The notes under the pieces were generated by a model, which searched no databases, had not been told where the DNA came from, and was given only the letters and a program-made list of their open reading frames with translations. DNA of 19,823 bases, from the NCBI GenBank assembly GCA_003697085.1, contig RFFU01000003.1:1-19823 (forward strand), read 5' to 3'. The position numbers and the translations under genes were made by a program. The first letter of the stretch is position 1. Each line of letters opens with the position of its first letter. Positions 1 through 15,413 of the stretch are shown piece after piece. Source of the DNA: Candidatus Hydrogenedentota bacterium (GTDB taxonomy: Bacteria; UBA8481; J006).

Positions 1-180
1 AAGCGAATGGATGCCGATGTATTCGACGCCGTCCACTGTTCGATCTTCGTAGGGGAATCCCATCATCCAGATGCGGATCGTCAAGGGTTCGGCGGCGGCA
101 CTTTCCGGAACAACGCCGGACGTCAGACAAAGCAAGGCCAAAATCCCCCCAAAAACCATCCCGAATCGGACTTGCTTCAT
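1..180 (-). CDS. Secreted protein, likely ABC sugar-binding protein (N-terminal fragment)
   Basis: Only the first 60 residues are in the window; the gene runs off the left edge. It starts with a clear Sec signal peptide: basic MKQVR, a hydrophobic core around residues 7-22, and probable cleavage after AAA near residue 30. The mature start, EPLTIRIWMMGF, resembles the first beta strand of family-1 extracellular solute-binding proteins. There is no lipobox cysteine, so the protein would be periplasmic rather than lipid-anchored. The ATG overlaps the stop of the upstream GH94 gene as ATGA, and an AAGGGGG ribosome-binding site sits just before it, so the two genes are translationally coupled. The coupling to a glycoside phosphorylase supports a sugar-uptake role. 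Signal peptide and coupling are seen; the solute-binding assignment rests on a short stretch and is inferred. Confidence 0.6.
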   Translation of the reverse strand, partial: MKQVRFGMVFGGILALLCLTSGVVPESAAAEPLTIRIWMMGFPYEDRTVDGVEYIGIHSL

Positions 181-3100
181 AGTGGCCCCCTTATACCTCT
201 TCCCTTCCCAAAATCAACCTCGATCCTCCCCACCTCTCCCCTTCGTACGCATTCCGCCCATCTCCCTGTTATGAAACCAGAGCTGCTCGCATACTTTTCT
301 CCCTCGTTTCCCTCGACGACAACTCTTTCGATCCGCGCCTTCCAGGTATCTATCCTTAGAGGATTATTGTAAATCACGGGAACCCTTCCGCGAAAAAGAA
401 ACGCGCACGAGTTTACGGGAACGCGAATCCGCCCCTTCGGTGTCTCCAACTCTCCAGCACGAATCAGAAAAAAATCCTTCTTCAGGATCGGTGAAAAGCG
501 GCACTGCAACAGGCCGTGATCATCGACCGAAAACGGTCGCGGTCCCAACATTAAAAAGAGCCAAATGCTGATAAATTCCGCCGTGGAACCGCTGAGCCTG
601 GCGACGAATCCCCTTCCGACCAAATCCGCATCTTCAACGACACTGGAAGCCAAAAAGGAGGAATTTTCGAGAATACTTCTTCCGTAACGCGCCGGATCCT
701 GGTTCGGAATCCCCGCCCTTCTCCAGCAAGAAAAGAATTCCTCGTATAACCCGGCGCGAAGAAGTTCGAGGAGGTATTTGTATTCCATATGCAACCAGAT
801 CGTCTCATTCTCCAACCACCCTCGACGAAACGTTCTCGCTCTTCCGATTTCCAAAGGTTCTTTTTGCAACGACTCATTCAACCGAAACATTCCCAATTTC
901 CGATCATAGAGTGGACTTTTCAAGAGCGCTCGGTGGATTTGCCGAGCCTTTCGAGGAAAGGTTCGCATCGCCCGGACGGCTCCTTCGAGAAACAACGGTA
1001 ACGGAACGGCCCGAAATCCCTTCGGCTCCACGAGGAAGTCCCCCGATTCGTGGCGCAATCGTTTCTTTCCCTGTTTCTTATACTCGAATCGCGTCACGTT
1101 CTGGCGGAAGTAGGTATGGGGTAAACCATCCGTTCTCCGGAATGCCGTTCGAAGATTTCGATTCATCATTTGTTCCGCCGCCGCAAGTCCCTCCAACAAC
1201 TTTTTCCGCTCGATCACACGGAAGCGCGCGGGAACTTTTCCCTCCATTCGGTTCAAGAATGCCTCACGTAATGTGTGGCTTTCATTCCAAAAGACAAATT
1301 TCTCTCTCTTCGTCATCACCATTTCGAAGACCTGCTCGGCGAAATCCGCGATAAAGAACGGAAGGGATACCCCCTCGAATGATGTGGCTTCCAGTTCCGC
1401 GCAGAGGAATCGTATCCATCGTAGGAGTTCAAAGCCTTCCGCAACACTTGATCCCAACAAAGCCGGAAGTCCGTTCATCGCGTCGTTCCAACCCGGTTTA
1501 TCGGCCGCCATTTCGATTCCTCGGCCCTGAGGGTCCAAGGAACAGAGTTTGTTGAGAACCACCGTCAGGAGTTTTGCAAATAGATTGACTTCCAAAACGT
1601 GACGTTTTCCATCAGCCCCCGTCACTTCAAGCCATCCCGATCTCGATGCGCTCTCGTTCTCTTTTTTCACCGCGGGCGCCCGGCGGACATCACACGCCGC
1701 CGCGGAAAAGACTAAGGTTTCGGAACGCGGCAGCACTCGAAATTCCGGCCGGTAAAAACGGTAAATCGAACGAGCAAAGAGCAATTCCCTCTTTCGCTCG
1801 GGAAAGAAGAGCAGATAATTCTCGATCAGATCCAATACATAAGTCCAATGGTCCACCCAATATCCGTCCCCGAACTTCGCCGAGATCTCGGGTTCGCATT
1901 CCTTCAGAATCTCCCGTGCCAGACGCCAGGCTTTCCCACGATCTCCTCCGAAAACCTCCCATGCCCATGCGACTACCTCCGCGGGCCGAAACGAGCGCTT
2001 CAAAAGATTCTTCAGCCGCTCCCCTTCCTTTTTTCGTAACCGGCATCGGGAAGGAAGAACTTTTTCGATCTGCTTCGGCCTGCGGGACCAGCGATAACGA
2101 ACCGGCTCGATGACAAGAGGATTCCACCCGTCGATCTGAAGAAGATCGACGAAGAGACGGATGTTCTCGAGTCCCGCCGCCGGTTCAAAGAAAACGTCGT
2201 TTCTCCGGTTCTGACACACGTCCCGGTAGTTCCCGTTCCCCTGGGAACAATACGTCGGCTCCAAGAGGAAATCGTTGTAGTCCCGTTCGAGATCCCCGTG
2301 TTTTCGGGAATAAAGATGAAGAACCTTCTCTTGTTCCTTCGCGCCCTTCGCCACGGGAATCGCAAGTCCCCCTCGGAGCACATTGTCGAGAAAATTTTGA
2401 CGGGCATAGAAATCGAACCGAATATCTCCGGAACATGTGGCGCAATTTCGCCCAATCTCCGCAACCAACGCCGCGTTTTTCTCGCGGGCCCGCTCAAAAT
2501 AGGCTCGAGCGCTTAACGTTTTTCGCGCCAGGTCGAGCAGACGTTTTTCCGGTAACCACCCGAACACCTCATACCAGACCGTTTTCTCTCGCGCGGGAAC
2601 CTTCCGCCGGAGGAAGAGAAAAGCGGACGGCGTCGTGTTTCCCAAATACTTCCGCGTCGGCCGGGAATTCCCTTCGAGAAACACGTCGGGAAGGGAAAGG
2701 GAAGTATCCCGTCCAAACACCTCCTGCGGATCAACGATCCAACCTTCGCTCTTTCGCAAGCGGCCGGAAGAAGCAAAGAAGCCTCCCCGAACTTTTCGCA
2801 CGAGGGGTTTGTCATCAGGGATAATCCTCAAGCGGAAGAACGGCATACCTTCTTCCAAATTCTCCACTTCGAAAAAGGCTTCCAGGGTGCGGGCCATTGT
2901 CTGGGTCAGAATCGCCTTGGCTCCGTACGGAATCAGAACGGGGAGGCCGTCGAGAACATGGATCCGCCGATCAGATCCGTACAGATTCTGAAGGGTCACT
3001 TTCCGAACCAGCCCCGGAAATGGGGCTTGCGGAATCGTGTAATACGTTAAAGAGATATGCCAGCCACATCGCTGATTTTCCTCTCTTAAGGAAACTTCCC

Positions 3101-3506
3101 ACGGCCGAATCTCCATCCAACGCGTCAGGACTGGGTCACAATTTCTTCTCGGCGCAAACGGCTCCCAAAACCCTGTCTCTTCTTCCCGGATAAATGTCCG
3201 AAACCCCCGTTGGGACACGACGGCAAAGGCCTTGTTTGCCGGCTCGAATTCTAAAAAAGCGCCGTCCTTCGTCCCCACCCCCGCGCTGACAACGGCCTGG
3301 CCGCGATTGACATAAAAACACCAAAGAGGGCGACCGCACTCCCCCGCAACTCCCGGCAGAAACGAGGCGAACGGCGGTTTCCGATCGAAATCCCGAATGC
3401 GAAACGTACCATCGCTCTCTAAAAAATAATCACCGTTCTCCTCTGAAAAATTTTCGTTGGAAGGAGAGAAAAAAAAGTGGGGTGGAGGAGTCCGGCGGAC
3501 GTTCAT
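177..3506 (-). CDS. GH94-type glycoside phosphorylase, possible 1,2-beta-oligoglucan phosphorylase
   Basis: A large (1,109-residue) cytoplasmic enzyme of the cellobiose-phosphorylase family (formerly glycosyltransferase family 36). Such enzymes split beta-glucosides with phosphate, releasing glucose-1-phosphate. Family signs, numbered from the chosen ATG: GRPLWCFYVNRGQ near residue 60 in the N-terminal beta-sandwich, QGNGNYRDVCQNRRND near 422-437, GDGYWVDHWTY near 546, and KPGWNDAMNG near 670, whose Asp (about 675) matches the general-acid Asp of GH94. The length of about 1,100 residues is longer than cellobiose phosphorylase (about 800) and fits 1,2-beta-oligoglucan phosphorylases, which in Listeria are encoded with a sugar-binding protein. 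The exact substrate is inferred. The reading frame extends to a GTG at 3548 without a ribosome-binding site. The ATG at 3506 has GGAGG 11 bases upstream and is preferred. No signal peptide is seen. Confidence 0.85.
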   Translation of the reverse strand: MNVRRTPPPHFFFSPSNENFSEENGDYFLESDGTFRIRDFDRKPPFASFLPGVAGECGRPLWCFYVNRGQAVVSAGVGTKDGAFLEFEPANKAFAVVSQRGFRTFIREEETGFWEPFAPRRNCDPVLTRWMEIRPWEVSLREENQRCGWHISLTYYTIPQAPFPGLVRKVTLQNLYGSDRRIHVLDGLPVLIPYGAKAILTQTMARTLEAFFEVENLEEGMPFFRLRIIPDDKPLVRKVRGGFFASSGRLRKSEGWIVDPQEVFGRDTSLSLPDVFLEGNSRPTRKYLGNTTPSAFLFLRRKVPAREKTVWYEVFGWLPEKRLLDLARKTLSARAYFERAREKNAALVAEIGRNCATCSGDIRFDFYARQNFLDNVLRGGLAIPVAKGAKEQEKVLHLYSRKHGDLERDYNDFLLEPTYCSQGNGNYRDVCQNRRNDVFFEPAAGLENIRLFVDLLQIDGWNPLVIEPVRYRWSRRPKQIEKVLPSRCRLRKKEGERLKNLLKRSFRPAEVVAWAWEVFGGDRGKAWRLAREILKECEPEISAKFGDGYWVDHWTYVLDLIENYLLFFPERKRELLFARSIYRFYRPEFRVLPRSETLVFSAAACDVRRAPAVKKENESASRSGWLEVTGADGKRHVLEVNLFAKLLTVVLNKLCSLDPQGRGIEMAADKPGWNDAMNGLPALLGSSVAEGFELLRWIRFLCAELEATSFEGVSLPFFIADFAEQVFEMVMTKREKFVFWNESHTLREAFLNRMEGKVPARFRVIERKKLLEGLAAAEQMMNRNLRTAFRRTDGLPHTYFRQNVTRFEYKKQGKKRLRHESGDFLVEPKGFRAVPLPLFLEGAVRAMRTFPRKARQIHRALLKSPLYDRKLGMFRLNESLQKEPLEIGRARTFRRGWLENETIWLHMEYKYLLELLRAGLYEEFFSCWRRAGIPNQDPARYGRSILENSSFLASSVVEDADLVGRGFVARLSGSTAEFISIWLFLMLGPRPFSVDDHGLLQCRFSPILKKDFFLIRAGELETPKGRIRVPVNSCAFLFRGRVPVIYNNPLRIDTWKARIERVVVEGNEGEKYASSSGFITGRWAECVRRGEVGRIEVDFGKGRGIRGPL

Positions 3507-3564
3507 CCGCAAGCCAACCTCCGACCCCAAACCCAAGCAGGAGGACACATTTTAGAAACACCGC

Positions 3565-3649: not shown

Positions 3650-4453
3650 TTAATACTCGTAACGTATTTCATCCAGATAAAAAACCACTTTTTTTCGTCC
3701 GGAATTCTTGCTGGAATCGACCGTCCACATGAATCCGAACGTCACCCGGCGAAGATCGAGCCCTTCCAGAGGAATCGTCACATCGCGCCACTCCTTCGAT
3801 AGTTTCAGACCCTTCTTCTCCTTCTTCACCGTGTCAGGATACTTTCCACTCGCAAGCCCGCCCAATCCGAAATTAACGACCTCGCCCCCGACCTCCCCCC
3901 GCACCGCGAATTTCACGGCTTTCGCTCCGGAAAGGTTAAAACCCGCATCCGGTATGTTTCCGTCCCAGTTTCCTTCCGGATTCTGCCAAAAGACCCCGGC
4001 CCAACCTTGCTGTTTCTTCGTCAGATCATATTCCCATCGCATACACGTCGTGCCCCTGTATTTGTCTTCCGCGTAATCCGGTTCCACACTGACAGCCGAA
4101 GCATCCCCCATCCATCCGGAAGGGATATAATGATTTCCGGAATATTCGGCATCCTTGTAGACGTAGAATACCGGTCCCCCAACGGGAGCAGAGAACCCTT
4201 CCCCGGTGCTTGTCGAGGGCCCCGTTGACTCTTCTTCCGGCGGCGCCTCCGCGACCAACTCCTCGACCGATGGTTCCTTTTCCTTCGGAACCGAAGGCGA
4301 TTCCGCAGTCTTGGCCGCCGAGACTTCCCCGTTCCCGGGTGTAGCCTCCTTCTTCCCCTTTCCGCATCCGCCAAGAGCGAAAATCAAAGTCAGCGCCAAT
4401 CCGGATATTCCAAAGAGCACTCGCAACCGCTTCCCCAAACCGATATTCCGCAT
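3650..4453 (-). CDS. Lipoprotein with C-terminal carbohydrate-binding-like domain
   Basis: A 267-residue lipoprotein. After a hydrophobic signal segment the lipobox LGGC gives a lipidated Cys near residue 30. A low-complexity linker rich in Pro, Glu, Ser and Thr follows for about 65 residues. The C-terminal 170 residues look like a galactose-binding-type beta sandwich as found in carbohydrate-binding modules: GWAGVFWQNPEGNW, FNLSGAKAVKFAVRGE, WRDVTIPLEGLDL and the closing strand VVFYLDEIRYEY are typical of that fold. The start is set by GGAGGAGG a few bases before two consecutive ATGs (4456, 4453); an upstream in-frame ATG at 4498 lacks such a site. It is the first gene after a promoter and LacI-like operator and precedes the GH94 gene. 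A surface glycan-binding role is likely but inferred, and the ligand is unknown. Confidence 0.75.
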   Translation of the reverse strand: MRNIGLGKRLRVLFGISGLALTLIFALGGCGKGKKEATPGNGEVSAAKTAESPSVPKEKEPSVEELVAEAPPEEESTGPSTSTGEGFSAPVGGPVFYVYKDAEYSGNHYIPSGWMGDASAVSVEPDYAEDKYRGTTCMRWEYDLTKKQQGWAGVFWQNPEGNWDGNIPDAGFNLSGAKAVKFAVRGEVGGEVVNFGLGGLASGKYPDTVKKEKKGLKLSKEWRDVTIPLEGLDLRRVTFGFMWTVDSSKNSGRKKVVFYLDEIRYEY

Positions 4454-4599
4454 CATTTCCTCCTCCAATTCCTTCCCCTTGAAAGGGCTAATTTTCACCG
4501 CTCGAAGTCCTGTGTTGCCAGTTTTTCATCTCGCCTGTCCGACTCCCTCAAGTATTTCACGTTTTCCTTCACTTTCACGCTTTCCCATCGCCGGACAAT

Positions 4600-5565: not shown

Positions 5566-6450
5566 TTACTCTAACTCCTTGTTTATCAATATCTTTACCC
5601 TTGTTCCTCGGCCGTTTTCGCCCGATTCGATCACGAGCCGCCCCCCCAAGATTTCCGCCCGCGCCGTCATCGATCGAATCCCGTAATGCCCCGAAAAAAA
5701 CTGGTCCTCCTCCGAAATTCCATCCTGCCTCACTCCCCCTATCCCGTCATCCTCAACAACAACCGCTACCTCGATAAGGTGACTGGAAACCGGTCTTTGC
5801 CTCTGAAAAATTTTGATATATTGACATTCGGAATGCCTTACGGCATTCGTGACCGCCTCCTGAAGAATCCGAAACAACTGTCGTTTTTCCTCCGATGACA
5901 TTCGCGGCAATGCTGAAAGGTTTACTGTAATATCGATATTCTTTCCGGCCACGAGCCGTTTCGAATAGGTTCGAATCGCCGCTTCCAAGCCGAGAACCTC
6001 GAGCTCCGTCGGATAGAGATCGTACATCACCTCGCGGATCTGCTTAATGAGATACCGCACGTCCTTCAAAAGATCGTTCAAACATTCTTTCGATCGTTCG
6101 GCGTTCGGTCTTTTCTGATCCAACATTCGACCCAGAATCTCGATCTTCCGAAAGATCGAGGCTGCCGTCTGCGCCGGGCCGTCATGGAGTTCCTCCGCCA
6201 GCCGTCTCCGAACGCGTTCCAGCTCCTCCATACCCCGGAACGCCTCATGCCGAATATTCGAAAGCAGAAAAGCGGACTCCGTAAGTCTCTCGAACCCTTC
6301 GTCCATCTCCCGCAACACCGCTTCCTTGGGTGCTTCCCCCCGCGTAACGGCGTCGCGATATTCGCGCACAGAAGCCAGGAATCTCCCCAGTCCCTCCAAC
6401 AAAACCTCAGTCGGCGCCTTTCCCCTTTTGGGAGTTTCCCGTGCGCTCAC
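5566..6450 (-). CDS. DegS/NarX-type soluble sensor histidine kinase
   Basis: A two-component histidine kinase of the HisKA_3 plus HATPase_c class, about 294 residues from the chosen start. The phospho-acceptor His lies in RRRLAEELHDGPAQ, nearly identical to the DegS/LiaS/NarX H-box. The N-box is LFRILQEAVTNAVRHS, followed by VEDDGIGG and HYGIRSMTARAEILGG, ending in GRGTRVKILI. There is no membrane segment, PAS or HAMP domain; about 85 largely helical residues precede the H-box, so the input signal is probably cytoplasmic. The partner should be a NarL/LuxR-type response regulator, but none is in the window. The frame is open to a TTG at 6558 inside the SprA-like gene. The GTG at 6450 lies one base after that gene's stop (TGATGTG) and has GGCGG 7 bases upstream, so it is preferred; a TTG at 6468 is also possible. 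Confidence 0.87.
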   Translation of the reverse strand: MSARETPKRGKAPTEVLLEGLGRFLASVREYRDAVTRGEAPKEAVLREMDEGFERLTESAFLLSNIRHEAFRGMEELERVRRRLAEELHDGPAQTAASIFRKIEILGRMLDQKRPNAERSKECLNDLLKDVRYLIKQIREVMYDLYPTELEVLGLEAAIRTYSKRLVAGKNIDITVNLSALPRMSSEEKRQLFRILQEAVTNAVRHSECQYIKIFQRQRPVSSHLIEVAVVVEDDGIGGVRQDGISEEDQFFSGHYGIRSMTARAEILGGRLVIESGENGRGTRVKILINKELE

Positions 6451-6451
6451 A

Positions 6452-9400
6452 TCAGAACCGCCATTCAACTCGGGCGTTTCCTCCAAAGGTGATACGATCG
6501 TTGAGGCGTTCAAGGCGGTCGCTGAACCAACTTCCGTTTCCGGATGCGGACATTTCAAGATTCGAAGAGATCCGATAACCCAGGCCGAGATTGAACCCCA
6601 AGGTATTCTGATCCTGCGTTTTTAAACCTCCCCGAAGCGATTTTCTCACGCTTCCGTTGATACCTCCCGACAACTGAACCCGGCGCTGGATATCCGTGAA
6701 CTTACCGAGCGCGGATTTTTGGAGGTATTCGGGCAAATCGAAGTAATACGTGAAATTCATCGCCGGTGTCAGCGATGTATTTATGGTCTTTGCTTGAGGA
6801 TTGAGGAACTGCAGATTGGAAGAGCGATTCCACCCCAAGGTGAAAGTTGTGTTGAGAGCGTCTGTCCACTGAATGTTCCAATTCATACTTGGAGAGATAT
6901 TGACCGTTCGGGAGGCCGCGTTTTCGGACTGGCCGTAACTGACGGCGCCGGTCAGATAAGAAGAACGAAATTTGAGCGGGAACCAGGGGATGGCCTCTTT
7001 GACATTCATTCGCGAGTTCAAGGTGGCCTGTAAACCATCCGTGATCGACAGAGTCGAGAGCGAGGCGACCTCATTTCGCGAAAGACTCGTCGAATACGAC
7101 GTCTGCAACCAGCGGAAGGTCTTGATACCACCGGAAATCGAATGGGTAATATTCGTGGAGCCGCTGGTTCGAAAGGCCGCGACACCGATGGCATCCTTCC
7201 CGATCCTCTTGCTTGACCCCCACGGAAACACCCGTTCTCCGACATAATCTCCGAAAAGCGCCCCAAAATTGGTTCCGGGATCGAGTTGGCGGTAAGAGGC
7301 ATTCGAGGAGAGGGAATAGTTGTAATTCACGGTCAAAAAGGAAAGGAGTTTCGTCCAGACGGAGGGATTGATGCCGACGCTGACCCGGAAATCCCCGCCC
7401 AAGGCCGCGTCTTTGTTTTTCCCGCCGAAGGTCGCACGATTGAAATTCTCGTTGTACCTCCCCGTAAAGGTCACTCCCGGGGAAAAGCCGAAAAACGTCG
7501 GCAGGTTCAGATTCGACGTGACCGAATGAGAGCGGCTCGTAATTCCCTTCCAGCGCTCGGAAGCGATCAAAGTCCTTCTGTCCAGAAAAGCCGTCGTATA
7601 ATTGTACGAAAGGGATAAAGGATTGATCGGGCGCGAGGTGATTCCGACGCTGAGATTCTGATTCGCGGTTCGCGAATTCACGCTGACGTTGGCGCGCCCC
7701 GATCCGGCCCCGTATAGGCTTTTCCGAAGAGCAAGACTGTAGGAATACGACGAATTGACGGAGAGACTTTTGCCCGTCGGAATGATGCCGAAAATCTTCC
7801 TGGGGAAGACATAAGAATAACCCGTGCTGGCATGGAAACTGGAATTCTTGTCCGTTCGATCCTCGGCTCGAAAGTCGACCGTATTGAGCGTCCGTCCGTA
7901 GGAAAGGTTGACGGACGGAAATTTCCAGATTTGGGCCGTGAGGGTATAGGCTTGATTTTCGGTTCGGGTCTTTCCCAGATTCGATTTCAAGGTATTCTCC
8001 ACCCGATTGGGATCCGTCGTCGTCGTCGAGCGGCTCCAGCTCGCCGTCAGCGGCAAATTCACCTTCCAGCGTTCAGGAAGAAGCCGGTGGAGGGCGATGG
8101 AGCCGTGGAGGGAGACCGCATCCTGGGAAATCTCGTCGAAGGAACTGGCTTGAGGGTTGTTGATGAATCCGACTCCGCGAAACTTTCCCGGAACATCCCG
8201 CCACGAACCGTTGAGGCTCCAAAGATCCCCCCATCCCGTCGAAAAACTCGCTGTTCTGGCCGCACCGCTCAGCTCCTTCGGCTCTGCCACATAAATATCG
8301 TCGATCCAAATTTCGCCTGAGTCAACGTCTTCCGACTGAATACGGATCCAGAGTTCGTTGATATTCGCCAGACTCGGACTTCTCCCCATCTCCGGCCGCC
8401 CCACGATGAAAATCTCCTCTCCCCCGTCGACAAGCCGGATCACGGAATCCCCCCGTCCGAGGATGTTACTGATGGTGGCCGTCTGGATCGGATCCAGGGG
8501 AACATCCAAGCGATTCCAAATCGGCCCCGCCCCGTTTCGAAGATCCGTCCCGTTCGTAACGCGCGTACGAATCTCGATATAGTCATCGGCATCCGAGACA
8601 AGAAACAACGAAACGGTCTCTCCCCGCGCATCTCCCGCCAGAAAGAACGACAATCTCTGGTAATCGCTGATGTCCATCTTCTTCTGAAGCGGCTGCTTCA
8701 CCGTAATCGACTCGCCGGCGGCCAAGTCCCATTTCAGGGCCAGGGCCTGTTCCTTGACGGAATCGTCTCCTTTCGAGACCTCTCCCAGGTTCGGCGCCAG
8801 GAAGTTCGCGTCGCTGAGATTGTTTCTCGGGAGAATCGCAAGGCGCGTGTCATTCGCGGCTCCCACAAAACGGCTTCCGCGGAAATTCAACTGATCGATG
8901 AACAAAGTGACATTCGTGTCGCGATCGGGAGAACGAACGAAGACGAGCCGGACGTGCTTTATCACCTTCGAATCGGCGTCTCCAACCGCAATTCCGCTTC
9001 GAAACGGATACCGAAAAAGAGTCCACTGCGAATTATCGATTCCTGTTATAACTTGGGTTTCCAATTCCGTGGAGGAGTCGGCGAACTGAAAAAACGCCTC
9101 TCTTTGATCGAGAAAGAAATCACCATCCATATCCTCGGTCGTCAACGATCCGTTCCCTTGACCGAAGATCGTCCCCCCGATGTCGATTCCGATATCCTCA
9201 CCCGTGTTCAAAACACCGTTTTGCTCGCCCACATCCCCCGTCCCCGGTTTCCCATCGAGCCCGACGTCTTCGCTGTCGAGAATCCCGTCCTCATCCGCGT
9301 CTTCCGAGACGAGCCCGACATCGACAAAGACCCGCATCCCCGACGGAAGCCCTGAGACGAAAAACTCCAAAGCCGTCATATCCGAAAAATCGATCGCCGC

Positions 9401-12400
9401 CGACGAAAAGGCTTGCTGAACAGAGACCCACGTGTCACCGGGGCCGAAGGAAAGATTGAATTGCAACGAACTTTGTTTTTCATCTCCCGTCAACTGATCC
9501 AACGTCAGATGTCCGAAGTTGTCGTTCAACTGCATTGTCACGTCCCCTCGCCCGCCGAGAGCCGTGTTCAACGCGGGAGACCGAGAGCCCAAACCCCAGG
9601 ATGTGGGACCGAAGGCGGCGGAGACAATATTCTCTATCGCCTCAAAATCTTCCACCAGAGCACTTCCGAAGGTATTCGGTTCCAATGCGGACCACGCATA
9701 TTCGCCGGAAGCCGAGAGACGGAATTTATCCTGAACCTTGTTGAGAAACGAACTCTCTCCCTTTCGATTCAGAATTCCCAGCAAGAGACCTGCGATATCC
9801 ATCCGTGCATCCACTTCCGCCAGAGCGCTTTTGGTCGGTTTGTCCTCGAAAATCGTCGGAACTTCTCGCGCCTCAGCGGAAAAATTGTAAAGAAGCGTCG
9901 TTCCAAAACTCAGTTTCGGATTCACGTCGACGTCAAGGCGCGTGCCGGCCAAAGTCTGCTCCACTTGTCCCCCGAAAGGAAGAAATTCGTAATCCACGCG
10001 AATCTTCGATTCCGGCTTCAGAAGAGAGCGATTCAAAAACGTTATCACCCCCGCTTCGTAATCGATAAAATAATCGCGATCCCGCTCCACCTTCACGCCG
10101 TCCACATAAACGATATCGGACCCCTTGATGATGTCGAATCCCAGAGAAAAGATCTCTTGAGGTTGATCCGACGAATATTCGATATGGATCGTGTATTTGC
10201 TCGTCACATCGCTCAAATCGTCCGTATTGTAGATCGCGTCGTTGTCGACTTCCGCGTTTCCCGTTCCTGCAAAGGGCGCCGTATCCAGAAGGCGTATGAC
10301 TCCAAAATCGTAGTCGATCAGTTCGATATCGAGTTTGTCATCGCGGTCTCGATCGAAATTGAAAATCTGAAGATAACTCGTGGGAACACCGCCGATCTTA
10401 TCCGTCTGGGTGAACCCCAATTGATCGCGAATCTCAAAGACGAAATTCGGATCATCCTTCTTGATTCTCCGTCGTTTCAGGACGTAGCGGTTGCGGAGTT
10501 CGTGGATACGGAAAAGAGCGCGAACCGCGGAGGAAGTATCCGACGGAACACGGATCAAACGCGGTGGAAGGCCGCCTTGGCCAAAGACGTTCGTCTTGCC
10601 TTTGTAGGACACCGCCAAGACGTCGTTCGCGGAAACCGACGTAAGCATCTCCAACTCACCGGTAATGAGATTCACCGTATAATCGATCCCCGCGGTCAGT
10701 TGATTCCAGTTTCCCGTGTGGTTGAACCCCGCTGTCGGACCGAACCCAGAAGCCGTAAAGACCAACGCTCCCTCGTTATTCGAACCGATCTGGTCGTCGC
10801 GATAAACCACCACATCGGAAATCGGTACCTCAGACGCATCCGGCTCGATCTGGAAAAAGCGGTCTCGAGCGAAATCCACATCCCGAATATCTTCGATCAC
10901 TCTCTCCCCCGATAACGTGAACTCCTTCGACGCCGATACCCCCTTCGTTTGAGAACCGAAGGCGATCAGGGAAACCTTGTCCGCTCTGATCGGACCCAAA
11001 TTCAAGTTCGTGATATTCAAATTTCCCTTCGCTCCGAAGAGACTCTTGTTGTAAAGCGCAAACTGGCTGTTCGGAAGGGACACCGAAATATCCCCGAAAT
11101 CGAAATCGTATTGGTACGTCCCCCAAGAAGCGTGATGAGGAACCCCGACGAAGTCCACGCCTATATCCCTGTTGTTCACGGCATTGACACCTCTCTGCGT
11201 ATCGTCGAAACGGATATTGATGTTGATGTGGTCATTCGTTTCCTTCCCGACGCGTCCCAATACCTCCACCTGAAGTTCCTGGTTCAAGGAGAAATTGGAC
11301 TGCGTGTTCCCGCCGATACGGTTGGGATTCGGCTCCGGATAGTGTGTCACACTGTAATCGATCGAAACCACCTTCCGCCCTCGAATCGTCAGCGTCGAGG
11401 GAAGCGGGCCGCCGATTTCCAGATCGAAAAACCCCCGTTTCTTTTGCGGAGCGGTCTCCTGACCGGGAACGGGCGGGGGGGCCATCGAGACGACTTCGCT
11501 CGTCAGAGCGGGAGGAATCTTCCGAATCTTCGCCGCCGCGTCCAGCGTTTTTAAGACGTCGGTCTCCGTCCGCGGTTCCGTTCCCAGCGCAGCCGCGACT
11601 TCGGCATCCAACTTGACTTCACGCGCGGCGTACCCTTTCCTTACCGCCTCTTCATACCGCCTCGCCCGAGCCTCCGCTCTCTTCATTTCGCGGACGGCTT
11701 CCTCGACTCCCTTCCCGTCCCCGCTCCGGGCTCGAGTTGCCGCTGTCTGATGCCAAGCGCGCGCGTTTTCTCTCCACACAAGCGCCTGCCGCGCCATCTC
11801 GCGCTCCTCGCGAACCAGTAGCCACTGCGGCGGAAGATGCAACGGTACTTCCAATTCCGGAATCTTGACGATTTCCTGCCTCCCTTGTTTCTCTTTCCGC
11901 AGTGGCTGCTCCCCCGCGGCCCCTCTCCCAATTTCTCTTCGCGTCACGGAAACGACCTCGCGCTCTCTCAAGCCCGTGTTCTTCTGAAACCACGCTTCAT
12001 CAAGAGTCGGATCGATCTCTCGAATTCGGTTTCTCGCGTCCTCGGCCTTCAAGTGCGCCACCGTCGCCCTGTTGCTGTCCCCGGAAGCCTCCCAGGACCG
12101 CGCCGTTTCTTCCCAAGAACGCGCCACTTCGGCCCAACGTTCCACCAAATCCCTCTTCACCCGGTCGGAAACAGGCCGATTGATGATCAGGCGCCGTTTC
12201 CGCGCCAGAGCCTCTTGGTACCGCTCTCTTAACAACTCCCGTTCCACGGCGCGTTTCAACGCGGTCTTGGAACGGCCAAGAGCCTGATTCGCCGTGGCTT
12301 CGTCGCCTAATCGGCGCCACGTCTCCGCAACGTCCCGCCAGGCTTGGGCCGCGTTTCTCCAGGATTCGATCTCACTTCCCAGAATGGCAATGGTTTTTTC

Positions 12401-12754
12401 CAGTTCGTCGATTCTTTCCGGCGTCTTTTCCGCCTTTTCGGCCCGGATTCGACCGGCGTTCTCCCAAGCCAGCGCGGCCTGCGCCAACGCCTTCTTCACC
12501 GCTTCCGTGTCTCCAAACGCCTCGAGCCGGCGCGCCGTTTCCTCCCAGGTTCGTGCCGTCTCGCTCCATCCCGCATCCTCAACCGAATTCCCCATCTCCG
12601 CAGGTTGCCCATCGTTCGACTCCCCTCGCACCGGAACGAGGGGAAGAAGCAGCAGGAAAAAAAGGAAGATCGGCTCTCCTAAGATCTTTCGCCGGATTCC
12701 TCCTCGATATTCTCTCTCTTCAAACGTCGTCAAATCACTCCGTCCCCATTTCAA
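6452..12754 (-). CDS. sprA: Giant SprA/Sov-like outer-membrane protein with N-terminal Trp-rich repeats
   Basis: 2,100 residues. A signal peptide (hydrophobic core about 29-41, cleavage near VRG/ES) is followed by a helical region with four Trp-rich repeats (about 63-366) and a linker. From about residue 442 the protein resembles SprA/Sov, the translocon of the type IX secretion system: repeated DYTVNLITGELEML and YFIDYEAGVITFLNRS elements, beta-rich segments throughout, and SPSLANINELWIRIQ...SGEIWIDDIYV near 1459-1489, which closely recalls the SprA segment before the barrel. The last 500 residues alternate polar and aromatic residues and end in VEWRF, as expected of a beta barrel. An Asp-rich, probably calcium-binding insert lies at 1150-1218. 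The start is a TTG after GGAAGAGAG and is uncertain by a few residues. The kinase gene follows one base after the stop. Known family members secrete proteins across the outer membrane; that role here is inferred. Confidence 0.8.
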   Translation of the reverse strand: MKWGRSDLTTFEEREYRGGIRRKILGEPIFLFFLLLLPLVPVRGESNDGQPAEMGNSVEDAGWSETARTWEETARRLEAFGDTEAVKKALAQAALAWENAGRIRAEKAEKTPERIDELEKTIAILGSEIESWRNAAQAWRDVAETWRRLGDEATANQALGRSKTALKRAVERELLRERYQEALARKRRLIINRPVSDRVKRDLVERWAEVARSWEETARSWEASGDSNRATVAHLKAEDARNRIREIDPTLDEAWFQKNTGLREREVVSVTRREIGRGAAGEQPLRKEKQGRQEIVKIPELEVPLHLPPQWLLVREEREMARQALVWRENARAWHQTAATRARSGDGKGVEEAVREMKRAEARARRYEEAVRKGYAAREVKLDAEVAAALGTEPRTETDVLKTLDAAAKIRKIPPALTSEVVSMAPPPVPGQETAPQKKRGFFDLEIGGPLPSTLTIRGRKVVSIDYSVTHYPEPNPNRIGGNTQSNFSLNQELQVEVLGRVGKETNDHININIRFDDTQRGVNAVNNRDIGVDFVGVPHHASWGTYQYDFDFGDISVSLPNSQFALYNKSLFGAKGNLNITNLNLGPIRADKVSLIAFGSQTKGVSASKEFTLSGERVIEDIRDVDFARDRFFQIEPDASEVPISDVVVYRDDQIGSNNEGALVFTASGFGPTAGFNHTGNWNQLTAGIDYTVNLITGELEMLTSVSANDVLAVSYKGKTNVFGQGGLPPRLIRVPSDTSSAVRALFRIHELRNRYVLKRRRIKKDDPNFVFEIRDQLGFTQTDKIGGVPTSYLQIFNFDRDRDDKLDIELIDYDFGVIRLLDTAPFAGTGNAEVDNDAIYNTDDLSDVTSKYTIHIEYSSDQPQEIFSLGFDIIKGSDIVYVDGVKVERDRDYFIDYEAGVITFLNRSLLKPESKIRVDYEFLPFGGQVEQTLAGTRLDVDVNPKLSFGTTLLYNFSAEAREVPTIFEDKPTKSALAEVDARMDIAGLLLGILNRKGESSFLNKVQDKFRLSASGEYAWSALEPNTFGSALVEDFEAIENIVSAAFGPTSWGLGSRSPALNTALGGRGDVTMQLNDNFGHLTLDQLTGDEKQSSLQFNLSFGPGDTWVSVQQAFSSAAIDFSDMTALEFFVSGLPSGMRVFVDVGLVSEDADEDGILDSEDVGLDGKPGTGDVGEQNGVLNTGEDIGIDIGGTIFGQGNGSLTTEDMDGDFFLDQREAFFQFADSSTELETQVITGIDNSQWTLFRYPFRSGIAVGDADSKVIKHVRLVFVRSPDRDTNVTLFIDQLNFRGSRFVGAANDTRLAILPRNNLSDANFLAPNLGEVSKGDDSVKEQALALKWDLAAGESITVKQPLQKKMDISDYQRLSFFLAGDARGETVSLFLVSDADDYIEIRTRVTNGTDLRNGAGPIWNRLDVPLDPIQTATISNILGRGDSVIRLVDGGEEIFIVGRPEMGRSPSLANINELWIRIQSEDVDSGEIWIDDIYVAEPKELSGAARTASFSTGWGDLWSLNGSWRDVPGKFRGVGFINNPQASSFDEISQDAVSLHGSIALHRLLPERWKVNLPLTASWSRSTTTTDPNRVENTLKSNLGKTRTENQAYTLTAQIWKFPSVNLSYGRTLNTVDFRAEDRTDKNSSFHASTGYSYVFPRKIFGIIPTGKSLSVNSSYSYSLALRKSLYGAGSGRANVSVNSRTANQNLSVGITSRPINPLSLSYNYTTAFLDRRTLIASERWKGITSRSHSVTSNLNLPTFFGFSPGVTFTGRYNENFNRATFGGKNKDAALGGDFRVSVGINPSVWTKLLSFLTVNYNYSLSSNASYRQLDPGTNFGALFGDYVGERVFPWGSSKRIGKDAIGVAAFRTSGSTNITHSISGGIKTFRWLQTSYSTSLSRNEVASLSTLSITDGLQATLNSRMNVKEAIPWFPLKFRSSYLTGAVSYGQSENAASRTVNISPSMNWNIQWTDALNTTFTLGWNRSSNLQFLNPQAKTINTSLTPAMNFTYYFDLPEYLQKSALGKFTDIQRRVQLSGGINGSVRKSLRGGLKTQDQNTLGFNLGLGYRISSNLEMSASGNGSWFSDRLERLNDRITFGGNARVEWRF
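11657..12568 (-). repeat. Coding repeats: four Trp-rich helical hairpins in the SprA-like protein
   Basis: At about residues 63-100, 130-170, 206-245 and 327-366 the protein repeats a pattern of about 38-42 residues, W-x3-A-x2-W-x3-A, then a Gly-Asp turn (FGD, LGD, SGD, SGD) and an Ala/Lys/Glu-rich second helix. Examples are ARSWEETARSWEASGD and WRENARAWHQTAATRARSGD. The spacing suggests helical hairpins like TPR or Sel1 repeats, but the Trp pattern matches no repeat family I can name. The region would face the periplasm. Confidence 0.7.
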
Positions 12755-13106: not shown

Positions 13107-13239
13107 TCTCGTATGCAACTTACAGGAGTCCGGTTATCCGTTCCTCACTTCCCCTTCCGGAAAAAGGAAAAGGGGAATGAAAAGCGAGCTCACTTGTCGC
13201 GAGAGGCGCGGGGCAATAAGGTGTAACCGGGTTTATACT

Positions 13240-14316
13240 ATGAATCTCCGTATGAAAACTTTTGAACGTCATATCTGGTCCTCGCTGTGGCATTCAACGG
13301 CCGCCATCCTGTCGCTCTGCGTGGGAGTCCTTCTCCTTCACAAGATGTTTCGCATCGTCGAACTGGCAATCGCGCGTTCCCTCGATCTCGGAAAAACCCT
13401 CGGACTGTTTCTTTGGACGCTTCCCATCAGTTTACTCTACACCGTTCCGCTGGCCGCCTTGATCGCCACACTTTTCACCTACGGCCGACTCTTCACGGAT
13501 CGGGAAATCATCGCCTTGTTGGCCGCGGGAATACCGCGACGAAAATGGATGAGGCCGGCGCTTCTCTTCGCCCTTCTCCTTGCCTGCGCCTCGCTCCTCA
13601 ACAACGGCTTCCTTATTCCCAAGGCCTACCGGGAGTTGGACAAGGTCGGATTCGGCGTCGGCATCGATCCCTTTCAGGCTCTTCAACCGGGACAGTTCCT
13701 CAGGTCTCGTACCCGCCTCTTCAGTGTCTCCACGGTGGATAAAGAGGCTCGGACTTTCCGTGGTTTTTTTGCCGCTCTTCCGGGGGGGGATATCAAAAGG
13801 AGCGCGCGAGACAGATACTTTCTCGTCGCGCGAAACGGGCAGTGGAAATCGGACACTTCTTTCGTCCACCTCGAGCTGGAAGAAGGGGCACTCTATCATT
13901 TCTCTTCCCGAAAGGAACCCCGGACCCTCTTGCTCTCCTTCGATTCCTACGCCGTCAACTTGAGTCTTCCTCACGATGTCTCGCCCAATGCCAAGCGGCA
14001 GCCTTTTTCGGTCCTCTTTTCCCGCTACAAGAAGGAGGATCAAATCGAAATTCTCCGGCGGTTCGGGTTTGCGGTTGTCGTCGTCTTCTTCGTTATCGCG
14101 GCCATTCCTCTCGCCGCTCCTCAGAGCGGAGGACATCTCCGAAAAGGAACGGGAAGCAGCGCTATCGGCTACGGGCTCCTTTTCTATTTTTTCTATTGGC
14201 TCCTCTCCTTCGGAAGTGAAAGCCTCATCGTGTCACGCGGACTTCCCATAACTGCGGGACTTCTCCCCTACTTCGTTCTTGGAATCCTCGATTTTCTTCT
14301 CTGGAGATACAGATGA
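13240..14316 (+). CDS. lptF: LPS export permease, LptF-like (YjgP/YjgQ family)
   Basis: An inner-membrane permease of the LptB2FG transporter, which extracts lipopolysaccharide from the inner membrane and passes it to the periplasmic bridge. The topology fits the family: three N-terminal membrane segments (around AAILSLCVGVLLL, TLPISLLYTVPLAALIATLF and LLFALLLACASLL), a periplasmic beta domain of about 150 residues, and three C-terminal segments ending at FLLWRYR. The family motif region LFTDREIIALLAAGIPRRKWMRPALL is present. The length of 358 residues is normal. The first ATG of the frame (13177) has a possible AAGGA site, but it adds 21 residues unlike the family start, so 13240 is chosen; ATG 13252 (MKTFERHIW) also fits. 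The stop overlaps the lptG start as ATGA. LptF versus LptG is assigned mainly by order. Confidence 0.88.
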   Translation: MNLRMKTFERHIWSSLWHSTAAILSLCVGVLLLHKMFRIVELAIARSLDLGKTLGLFLWTLPISLLYTVPLAALIATLFTYGRLFTDREIIALLAAGIPRRKWMRPALLFALLLACASLLNNGFLIPKAYRELDKVGFGVGIDPFQALQPGQFLRSRTRLFSVSTVDKEARTFRGFFAALPGGDIKRSARDRYFLVARNGQWKSDTSFVHLELEEGALYHFSSRKEPRTLLLSFDSYAVNLSLPHDVSPNAKRQPFSVLFSRYKKEDQIEILRRFGFAVVVVFFVIAAIPLAAPQSGGHLRKGTGSSAIGYGLLFYFFYWLLSFGSESLIVSRGLPITAGLLPYFVLGILDFLLWRYR

Positions 14317-15413
14317 CCCGTCTCTCGCGTTTTCTCGGATTCCGTTATCTCGCCTCGTTGCTTCTCTTCTTCCTTCTCTTTTCCTCGCTCTTTCTTCTCG
14401 TCGAACTTTTCGAATTACGCCGCTATGTCGCTGACGCCAAGACAGCGTTGCTGCTGGGAACCTATCTCAGGTATCGCCTCCCGTTCCTGGCCGTCTTCTC
14501 CGCGCCAATCGCAACCTTAGTCGCGGCTTTGGCGGTTACCGCCTGGCGGAATCATTTCCATGAAATCGTCGCAGCGAGAGCCTGCGGTATCTCCCCTTTT
14601 CAGATCGCCGCCGGGCCGATTGTTTTCTCGATTCTCCTCACCCTCCTTCTTCTGGCAGGAACCGAATGGGTCGTTCCCGCTCAGGCGGAAAAAGCGGACT
14701 TCATCAAGACCGTGCGCCTCAAGAAACTGGCTCCCCCCGAGGAGGTTTTCTACGACATCGCTTTCACGCTCTCTGATTCCTCCTATGCTCTTGCTCAACG
14801 TTTCTCTCCCAATACAGGCGTTCTGGAATCTCTGACGCTCCTGACCGTCAACGCTTCCCACACGCGAGTCGAAAAACGGATTTCGATCCCCCGTCTGGAT
14901 TACCATATTCAGGAGAGGATATGGATTTCCCCCGAGGGGAAATCGTATCCTCTCCCCTCTCCGGAATATATCGCGCTCGTCTGCACGGCTGGAAACTTTC
15001 GTCCCCTTTCCGAACAGCCGGTGGAGGCCGTACGTCTTTCCGACCTCTTCCGGGATTACACCACCATCCGGACGTTGGAAGAAACTCTGCCACCATCCGA
15101 CCGCTTGGAACGCCAGAAGTCCGTACGGCTCGCCCGGATCAGCACGAAATTGGCCTTTCCTCTCGCGGTTCCCTTCTTGACGCTTCTCGGAGCCGCGTTG
15201 GGAATGAAAAAGTCTCGCGGGCGGACCCTGGCTCACGCGGTTTCCGCCGGCCTCGCCGCCACACTGGCTTTCATACTATTGACTGATCTGACGTTCAGCG
15301 TGGCCGAACTAATCGCCTCGTCGCCGCTCCTTCGATTTACCAGCGGTCTCATCCCGTGGACGGCGCCCCTTTTAGTGAGTCTGACCAGCCTCAACTTCAG
15401 CCGAAGGTGTTGA
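14313..15413 (+). CDS. lptG: LPS export permease, LptG-like (YjgP/YjgQ family)
   Basis: 366 residues and the second permease of the LptB2FG complex, translationally coupled to lptF by a 4-base ATGA overlap. Three N-terminal membrane segments (LLLFFLLFSSLFLLVELF, FLAVFSAPIATLVAALAV, IVFSILLTLLLLAGTEWVV) lead into a periplasmic beta-jellyroll region and three C-terminal segments, including FPLAVPFLTLLGAALGM. The family signature at the end of the second helix is visible as HEIVAARACGISPFQI. The paired occurrence implies LPS or a related outer-membrane glycolipid. The last 42 bases overlap the convergent membrane-HTH gene, and no terminator is seen after the stop. Confidence 0.88.
   Translation: MTRLSRFLGFRYLASLLLFFLLFSSLFLLVELFELRRYVADAKTALLLGTYLRYRLPFLAVFSAPIATLVAALAVTAWRNHFHEIVAARACGISPFQIAAGPIVFSILLTLLLLAGTEWVVPAQAEKADFIKTVRLKKLAPPEEVFYDIAFTLSDSSYALAQRFSPNTGVLESLTLLTVNASHTRVEKRISIPRLDYHIQERIWISPEGKSYPLPSPEYIALVCTAGNFRPLSEQPVEAVRLSDLFRDYTTIRTLEETLPPSDRLERQKSVRLARISTKLAFPLAVPFLTLLGAALGMKKSRGRTLAHAVSAGLAATLAFILLTDLTFSVAELIASSPLLRFTSGLIPWTAPLLVSLTSLNFSRRC

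Follow-up and report, generated by a model that had tools for sequence, protein, structure and literature searches.

The gene on the minus strand at 6452..12754 of the stretch of DNA analysed here (the window, 19,823 nucleotides in full) encodes a divergent SprA-family protein, and what is new in it is its N-terminal domain. The best reading of the protein is a bona fide SprA translocon. We consider it probable that it belongs to a type IX-like route in which cargo is carried by PorV, the added helical domain occupies the place of the docking segment and no recognisable motor takes part. The window is the entire contig (C50) of a 3.2 Mb MAG from Hydrogenedentota (145 contigs, 94.6% complete), a phylum assigned to the FCB group (NCBI). 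Our sample of the phylum consists of this genome (G000) and one relative (G001), whose orthologue of the window protein is at locus L019. As the first-pass annotation had noted, the window holds no gene of the type IX secretion system (T9SS) other than sprA.

Homology of the core to SprA

The open frame at 6452..12754 begins with TTG and codes for 2100 amino acids on the minus strand, the plus-strand frame of the same region being riddled with stops. The protein starts with a signal-peptide-like hydrophobic stretch at residues ~26-44 (12623..12679, minus strand), and the orthologue in the relative has a similar start; a helical part then extends to about residue 440 and is followed by a beta-rich core. 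The last residues are ...ARVEWRF, an ending that is typical of outer-membrane barrels, and the SprA-like protein is exported.

The first-pass annotation had put the protein forward as an SprA/Sov-like translocon candidate, and profile comparisons bear this out. The SprA/Sov profile TIGR04189 matched the protein in three stretches (E 5.5e-42) with 143 bits, which falls under the curated cut-off of 200 bits, and the orthologue in the relative scored 131.6 bits; Pfam SprA_N (PF14349) gave a weak match at residues 1446-1580. We then compared a core profile of two sequences, the window protein and its orthologue (residues 453-2100, covering barrel, cap and loops; 6455..11398, minus strand), with a profile built from 18 further SprA proteins. 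The two profiles were aligned by hhalign over ~1540-1570 columns with probability 100 and E of about 1e-118 to 1e-129, and four column segments of the core, the final 420 columns included, each matched in the correct order with probability 98.5-100, against 6% for the reversed control and <=0.1% for the column-shuffled one. The SprA match anticipated from residue 442 on is thus significant with TIGR04189 as well as over residues 453-2100 with hhalign. The profile of 18 SprA proteins retrieves the solved F. johnsoniae SprA (6h3i, 8gl6 and others) with E 7.6e-276, and the core is homologous throughout residues 453-2100 to SprA of F. johnsoniae and Sov of Porphyromonas gingivalis (PDB 6h3i, 8gl6 series). 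Sequence comparison with the PDB gave no SprA match when the protein alone or the two-sequence profile was used as query.

An AlphaFold2 model of residues ~432-1629, built from two sequences, reached a pLDDT of 28. Because the barrel could not be modelled, the fold of 36 strands in a single-chain outer-membrane barrel is predicted from the end-to-end homology with solved SprA. The identity of the core to the other sampled SprA proteins is about 18-25%, the closest of them being L065 (27.7%). In a tree of the cores, the window protein and its orthologue cluster with L065 (from genome G133) with a support of 1.0, and L075, which comes from a genome with full GldL/GldM (G204), stands apart from this group.

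The added N-terminal domain

The first ~440 residues had been described beforehand as helical, rich in Trp and forming a repeat domain added to SprA, and each element of this description held on closer analysis. Four units of 42 residues were delimited by repeat score and by the structural model, in which they appear as helical hairpins, at residues 61-102 (12449..12574), 130-171 (12242..12367), 205-246 (12017..12142) and 325-366 (11657..11782), all on the minus strand. The self-similarity of these units is 353 vs 34 +/- 16 for shuffled sequences, and the N-terminal repeats of the relative score 298 vs -9 +/- 17. The units share a pattern of W...A..W, a turn Gly and an Ala-rich second helix. 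Trp makes up 3.1 residues per 100 in the N-terminal part vs 1.6 in the core, and AlphaFold2 predicts long helical hairpins there with a mean pLDDT of 71. The domain is 39% identical in the relative with W...A..W and the turn Gly retained, and the repeat pattern is intact across two families (those of the window genome and its relative).

The suspicion that this domain is foreign to other SprA proteins was confirmed. The N-terminal part did not match the SprA profile (probability 0.3%), and residues 45-450 did not resemble the pre-core in the other SprA proteins, a region that varies much among the proteins sampled. The pre-core measures 452 residues in the window protein and 427 in the relative, against at most about 280 in the others compared; an apparent pre-core of 510 in L077 probably arises from a frame that is too long, and the start chosen for L073 and L076 truncates these two. 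Among the 290 genomes sampled, this genome and its relative are the only ones with a convincing copy of the domain. Four further matches (E 1e-4 to 8e-3) come from shorter frames and were rejected as they look like chance helical similarity. Other divergent SprA proteins have N-terminal additions of different kinds, helical-looking in L065 (residues 1-279) and FN3-looking in L066 (residues 1-266), and neither of the two has a detectable relation to the N-terminal domain of the window protein.

By its spacing and by weak sequence and fold matches the domain may be called TPR-like, a weak assignment that stops short of a proven TPR. Pfam TPR_2 gave a below-cut-off match to repeat 1 in the relative only (E 2.3e-4). 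Foldseek with the N-terminal model returned no match at E <= 0.001, the best being designed TPR proteins at E about 0.01, and VIA-align gave Z up to 10.2, which is within the chance range for helical models. SprE and Skp are absent among the matches listed by VIA-align, which excludes nothing.

The position of the domain can be compared with that of known periplasmic partners. In the extended translocon of F. johnsoniae, the N-terminus of SprA runs into a SkpA trimer and contributes to the anchoring of SprE, a TPR lipoprotein (PMC10994853), and PorW connects Sov with the PorK/N ring (PMC8754138); SprE/PorW is known from the literature as a TPR lipoprotein that docks on the SprA N-terminus. Relative to SprA/Sov, the usual shorter pre-core is replaced here by a helical repeat domain of ~400 residues. 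The likeness to SprE/PorW is one of position and spacing, as the window protein would place periplasmic helical repeats at the same point of the machine with a TPR-like W...A..W spacing. Unlike in SprE/PorW, the repeats lie within the SprA chain itself, are 42 residues long and have extended helices.

Cargo tags and PorV shuttles

The partners of SprA/Sov, namely PorV and type A C-terminal domains (CTDs), also occur in this genome. The type A T9SS sorting domain TIGR04183 was matched 17 times at E <= 0.01, 13 of these over the cut-off, with classic cargo tails such as WDGRN..G..VASGVYxY..GKLxVIR. The PorV family model (PorV_fam) gave 16 matches, most of them over the cut-off (best E 7e-54). 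Of the 16 PorV genes, 12 have a same-strand CTD match at most 3 kb upstream vs 0.12 expected by random placement, the distance from cargo to PorV being mostly 80-280 bases. A 13th PorV (on contig C62) is also downstream of a CTD-like tail, one that is absent from the CTD search list, and in the relative a CTD gene lies just upstream in 4/4 PorV loci checked. The presence of CTDs and PorV shuttles as gene pairs points to a SprA-PorV-CTD route of the type IX kind. Across the 290 genomes, SprA and PorV were found together in 102, SprA only in 13, PorV only in 7 and neither in 168 (threshold for PorV, E <= 1e-20), counts that ignore the relatedness of the genomes. The PorV-family loci of this genome (L092-L107) are on contigs C106, C96, C130, C68, C42, C133, C92, C116, C62 and others, and several of their frames are 500-660 aa long against a PorV domain of ~326 positions, which leaves a C-terminal extension.

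In the solved translocon of F. johnsoniae, PorV sits at the lateral opening of SprA with the cargo CTD on its loops, and the release of PorV with its cargo needs energy (PMC10994853). In Bacteroidota, one PorV serves all type A cargo, and a cognate PorP/SprF encoded downstream is found for type B cargo alone (PMC12618676). As in the pairs of type B CTD and PorP/SprF of F. johnsoniae, one shuttle gene lies here directly 3' of each cargo gene; unlike in those pairs, the cargo tails are of type A (TIGR04183) and the shuttles belong to the PorV family. Since such pairing in Bacteroidota is confined to type B, the gene layout resembles, by analogy, a type B logic executed with type A parts. A PorV of its own for each type A cargo suggests a cargo-targeting logic unlike that of Bacteroidota. 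Our literature search found no paper pairing Hydrogenedent- with type IX secretion.

Motor and other T9SS components

The T9SS is described as a machine of the FCB group that is powered by the GldL/GldM proton motor. The GldL and GldM models had no match at E <= 0.1 in either of the two genomes of the phylum, which sets this genome apart from the T9SS of Flavobacterium and Porphyromonas. As these models were trained on Bacteroidota, a missing match may reflect divergence; the absence is one of recognisable motors, and divergent versions are possible. Among the 290 genomes, GldL and GldM exceeded the cut-off, strongly, in G204 and G063 only. SprA is present in 115 of the genomes and is accompanied by convincing GldL and GldM in just one (G204), and the motor-less SprA genomes include several with SprA at >500 bits. 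In G063, which has GldL and GldM, neither SprA nor PorV was matched within this sample. The C25 sortase model (PF01364, PorU) had no match here, and control genomes were equally silent.

The T9SS partners that had been proposed for a genome-wide check were thus found in part: porV (16) and type IX CTDs (13 over the cut-off) are there, and GldL/GldM (PorL/PorM) were not found. The earlier interpretation fared likewise: a SprA relative with an added helical repeat domain and no canonical motor gene in our searches is what we find, and the idea of a different kind of export system is unsupported, as the CTDs and PorV shuttles of this genome are the partners expected of SprA. Because the GldL/GldM motor was searched for and not found, the system is filed as a type IX-type SprA-PorV-CTD secretion route and not as a complete T9SS. 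A pore and shuttles with no recognisable motor are the condition of this genome, which has the cargo tags too, and of most sampled SprA-bearing genomes; either the motor has diverged past recognition or the pore is able to work motor-free.

Proposed working model

At the level of sequence, the genome has a complete SprA core, cargo with type A CTDs and PorV genes beside the cargo, and by homology the pore and cargo steps probably proceed as follows. Cargo would cross the inner membrane through Sec; from the periplasmic side, its CTD would then move into the pore formed by SprA and attach to loops of the PorV that belongs to this cargo. Seated at the lateral opening of SprA, that PorV would exit sideways and bring the cargo to the surface. 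The four-hairpin domain would take the place of the N-terminal segment that binds SprE/SkpA in Flavobacterium and, by analogy, would do part of the SkpA/SprE job in cis in the periplasm, presumably cargo-chaperone docking, the coupling to an energy source, or both. We infer from this analogy that the N-terminal domain provides the pore with a periplasmic platform of its own at the SprE/SkpA position, and its expected location, where the docking platform of the solved structure binds, offers a concrete handle on how pore and periplasm are coupled. Given that no GldL/GldM is recognisable, the power may come from a strongly diverged or a different motor, or the process may be independent of a motor.

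A bolder version of this model, which we put forward tentatively and consider doubtful, holds that a single chain combining SprA with an SprE-like helical-repeat platform runs without the GldLM rotary motor as one form of a widespread motor-less route. If true, the combination of SprA, many cognate PorV and CTDs would be the general arrangement, and the motor-driven T9SS of Bacteroidota would be a special case.

Gene neighbourhood and alternative explanations

Divergent from sprA lie lptF (13177..14316, plus strand; PF03739, E 1.3e-48) and lptG (14313..15413, plus strand; PF03739, E 1.5e-32), which overlaps the end of lptF. Of the 64 sprA loci examined beyond the window, 25, the relative included, have the lptF-lptG pair divergently upstream of sprA; they come from 20 of 51 families, many of them unrelated, and the arrangement is always head to head and never on the same strand (e.g., L067, L068, L069, L116, L133, L154); the second commonest upstream neighbour family of sprA occurs in 5 loci only. 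No report of a link between sprA and lptFG was found in the literature at the level of titles, abstracts and counts. The link may reflect a shared regulation of outer-membrane assembly or lipopolysaccharide acting as cargo anchor; lipopolysaccharide is known as the anchor of type A cargo in P. gingivalis.

The recurrence of this adjacency in the window, in the relative and in the other loci could also mean that the protein, though related to SprA, has a different job, such as the export of lipopolysaccharide or a surface polymer. We regard this as very improbable, since LptF and LptG are complete, ordinary permeases and both the co-occurrence of SprA and PorV over 290 genomes and the cargo-PorV gene pairs fit protein export. 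The same CTDs and PorV genes would be at home in an ordinary complete T9SS whose GldL/M, PorK/N ring and sortase have diverged too far for Bacteroidota models, the N-terminal domain then being a lineage decoration of no mechanistic importance. SprA itself falls below its own family cut-off here, so weaker components would escape detection, and the unrelated additions on other SprA proteins, L065 (helical) and L066 (FN3-like), fit with decoration. Nevertheless, we find this explanation unlikely, because GldL/GldM are strong in two genomes and missing from the other 114 SprA-bearing genomes, several of them with SprA >500 bits, and because the N-terminal domain is retained with an intact repeat pattern in two families. 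The reading we prefer is still the SprA-type translocon with PorV-carried cargo and a helical domain in the docking position.

Three further genes of the window deserve mention. Directly downstream of sprA, a gene at 5566-6558 (minus strand), whose frame overlaps the sprA end, encodes a histidine kinase of the HisKA_3 type, which is its sole Pfam domain. At 177-3548 (minus strand), a protein of 1123 aa is a distant relative of the GH149 beta-1,3-glucan phosphorylase (95 bits vs a cut-off of 1150), and it is adjoined at 3650-4498 by a lipoprotein-like gene that matches CBM30 weakly.
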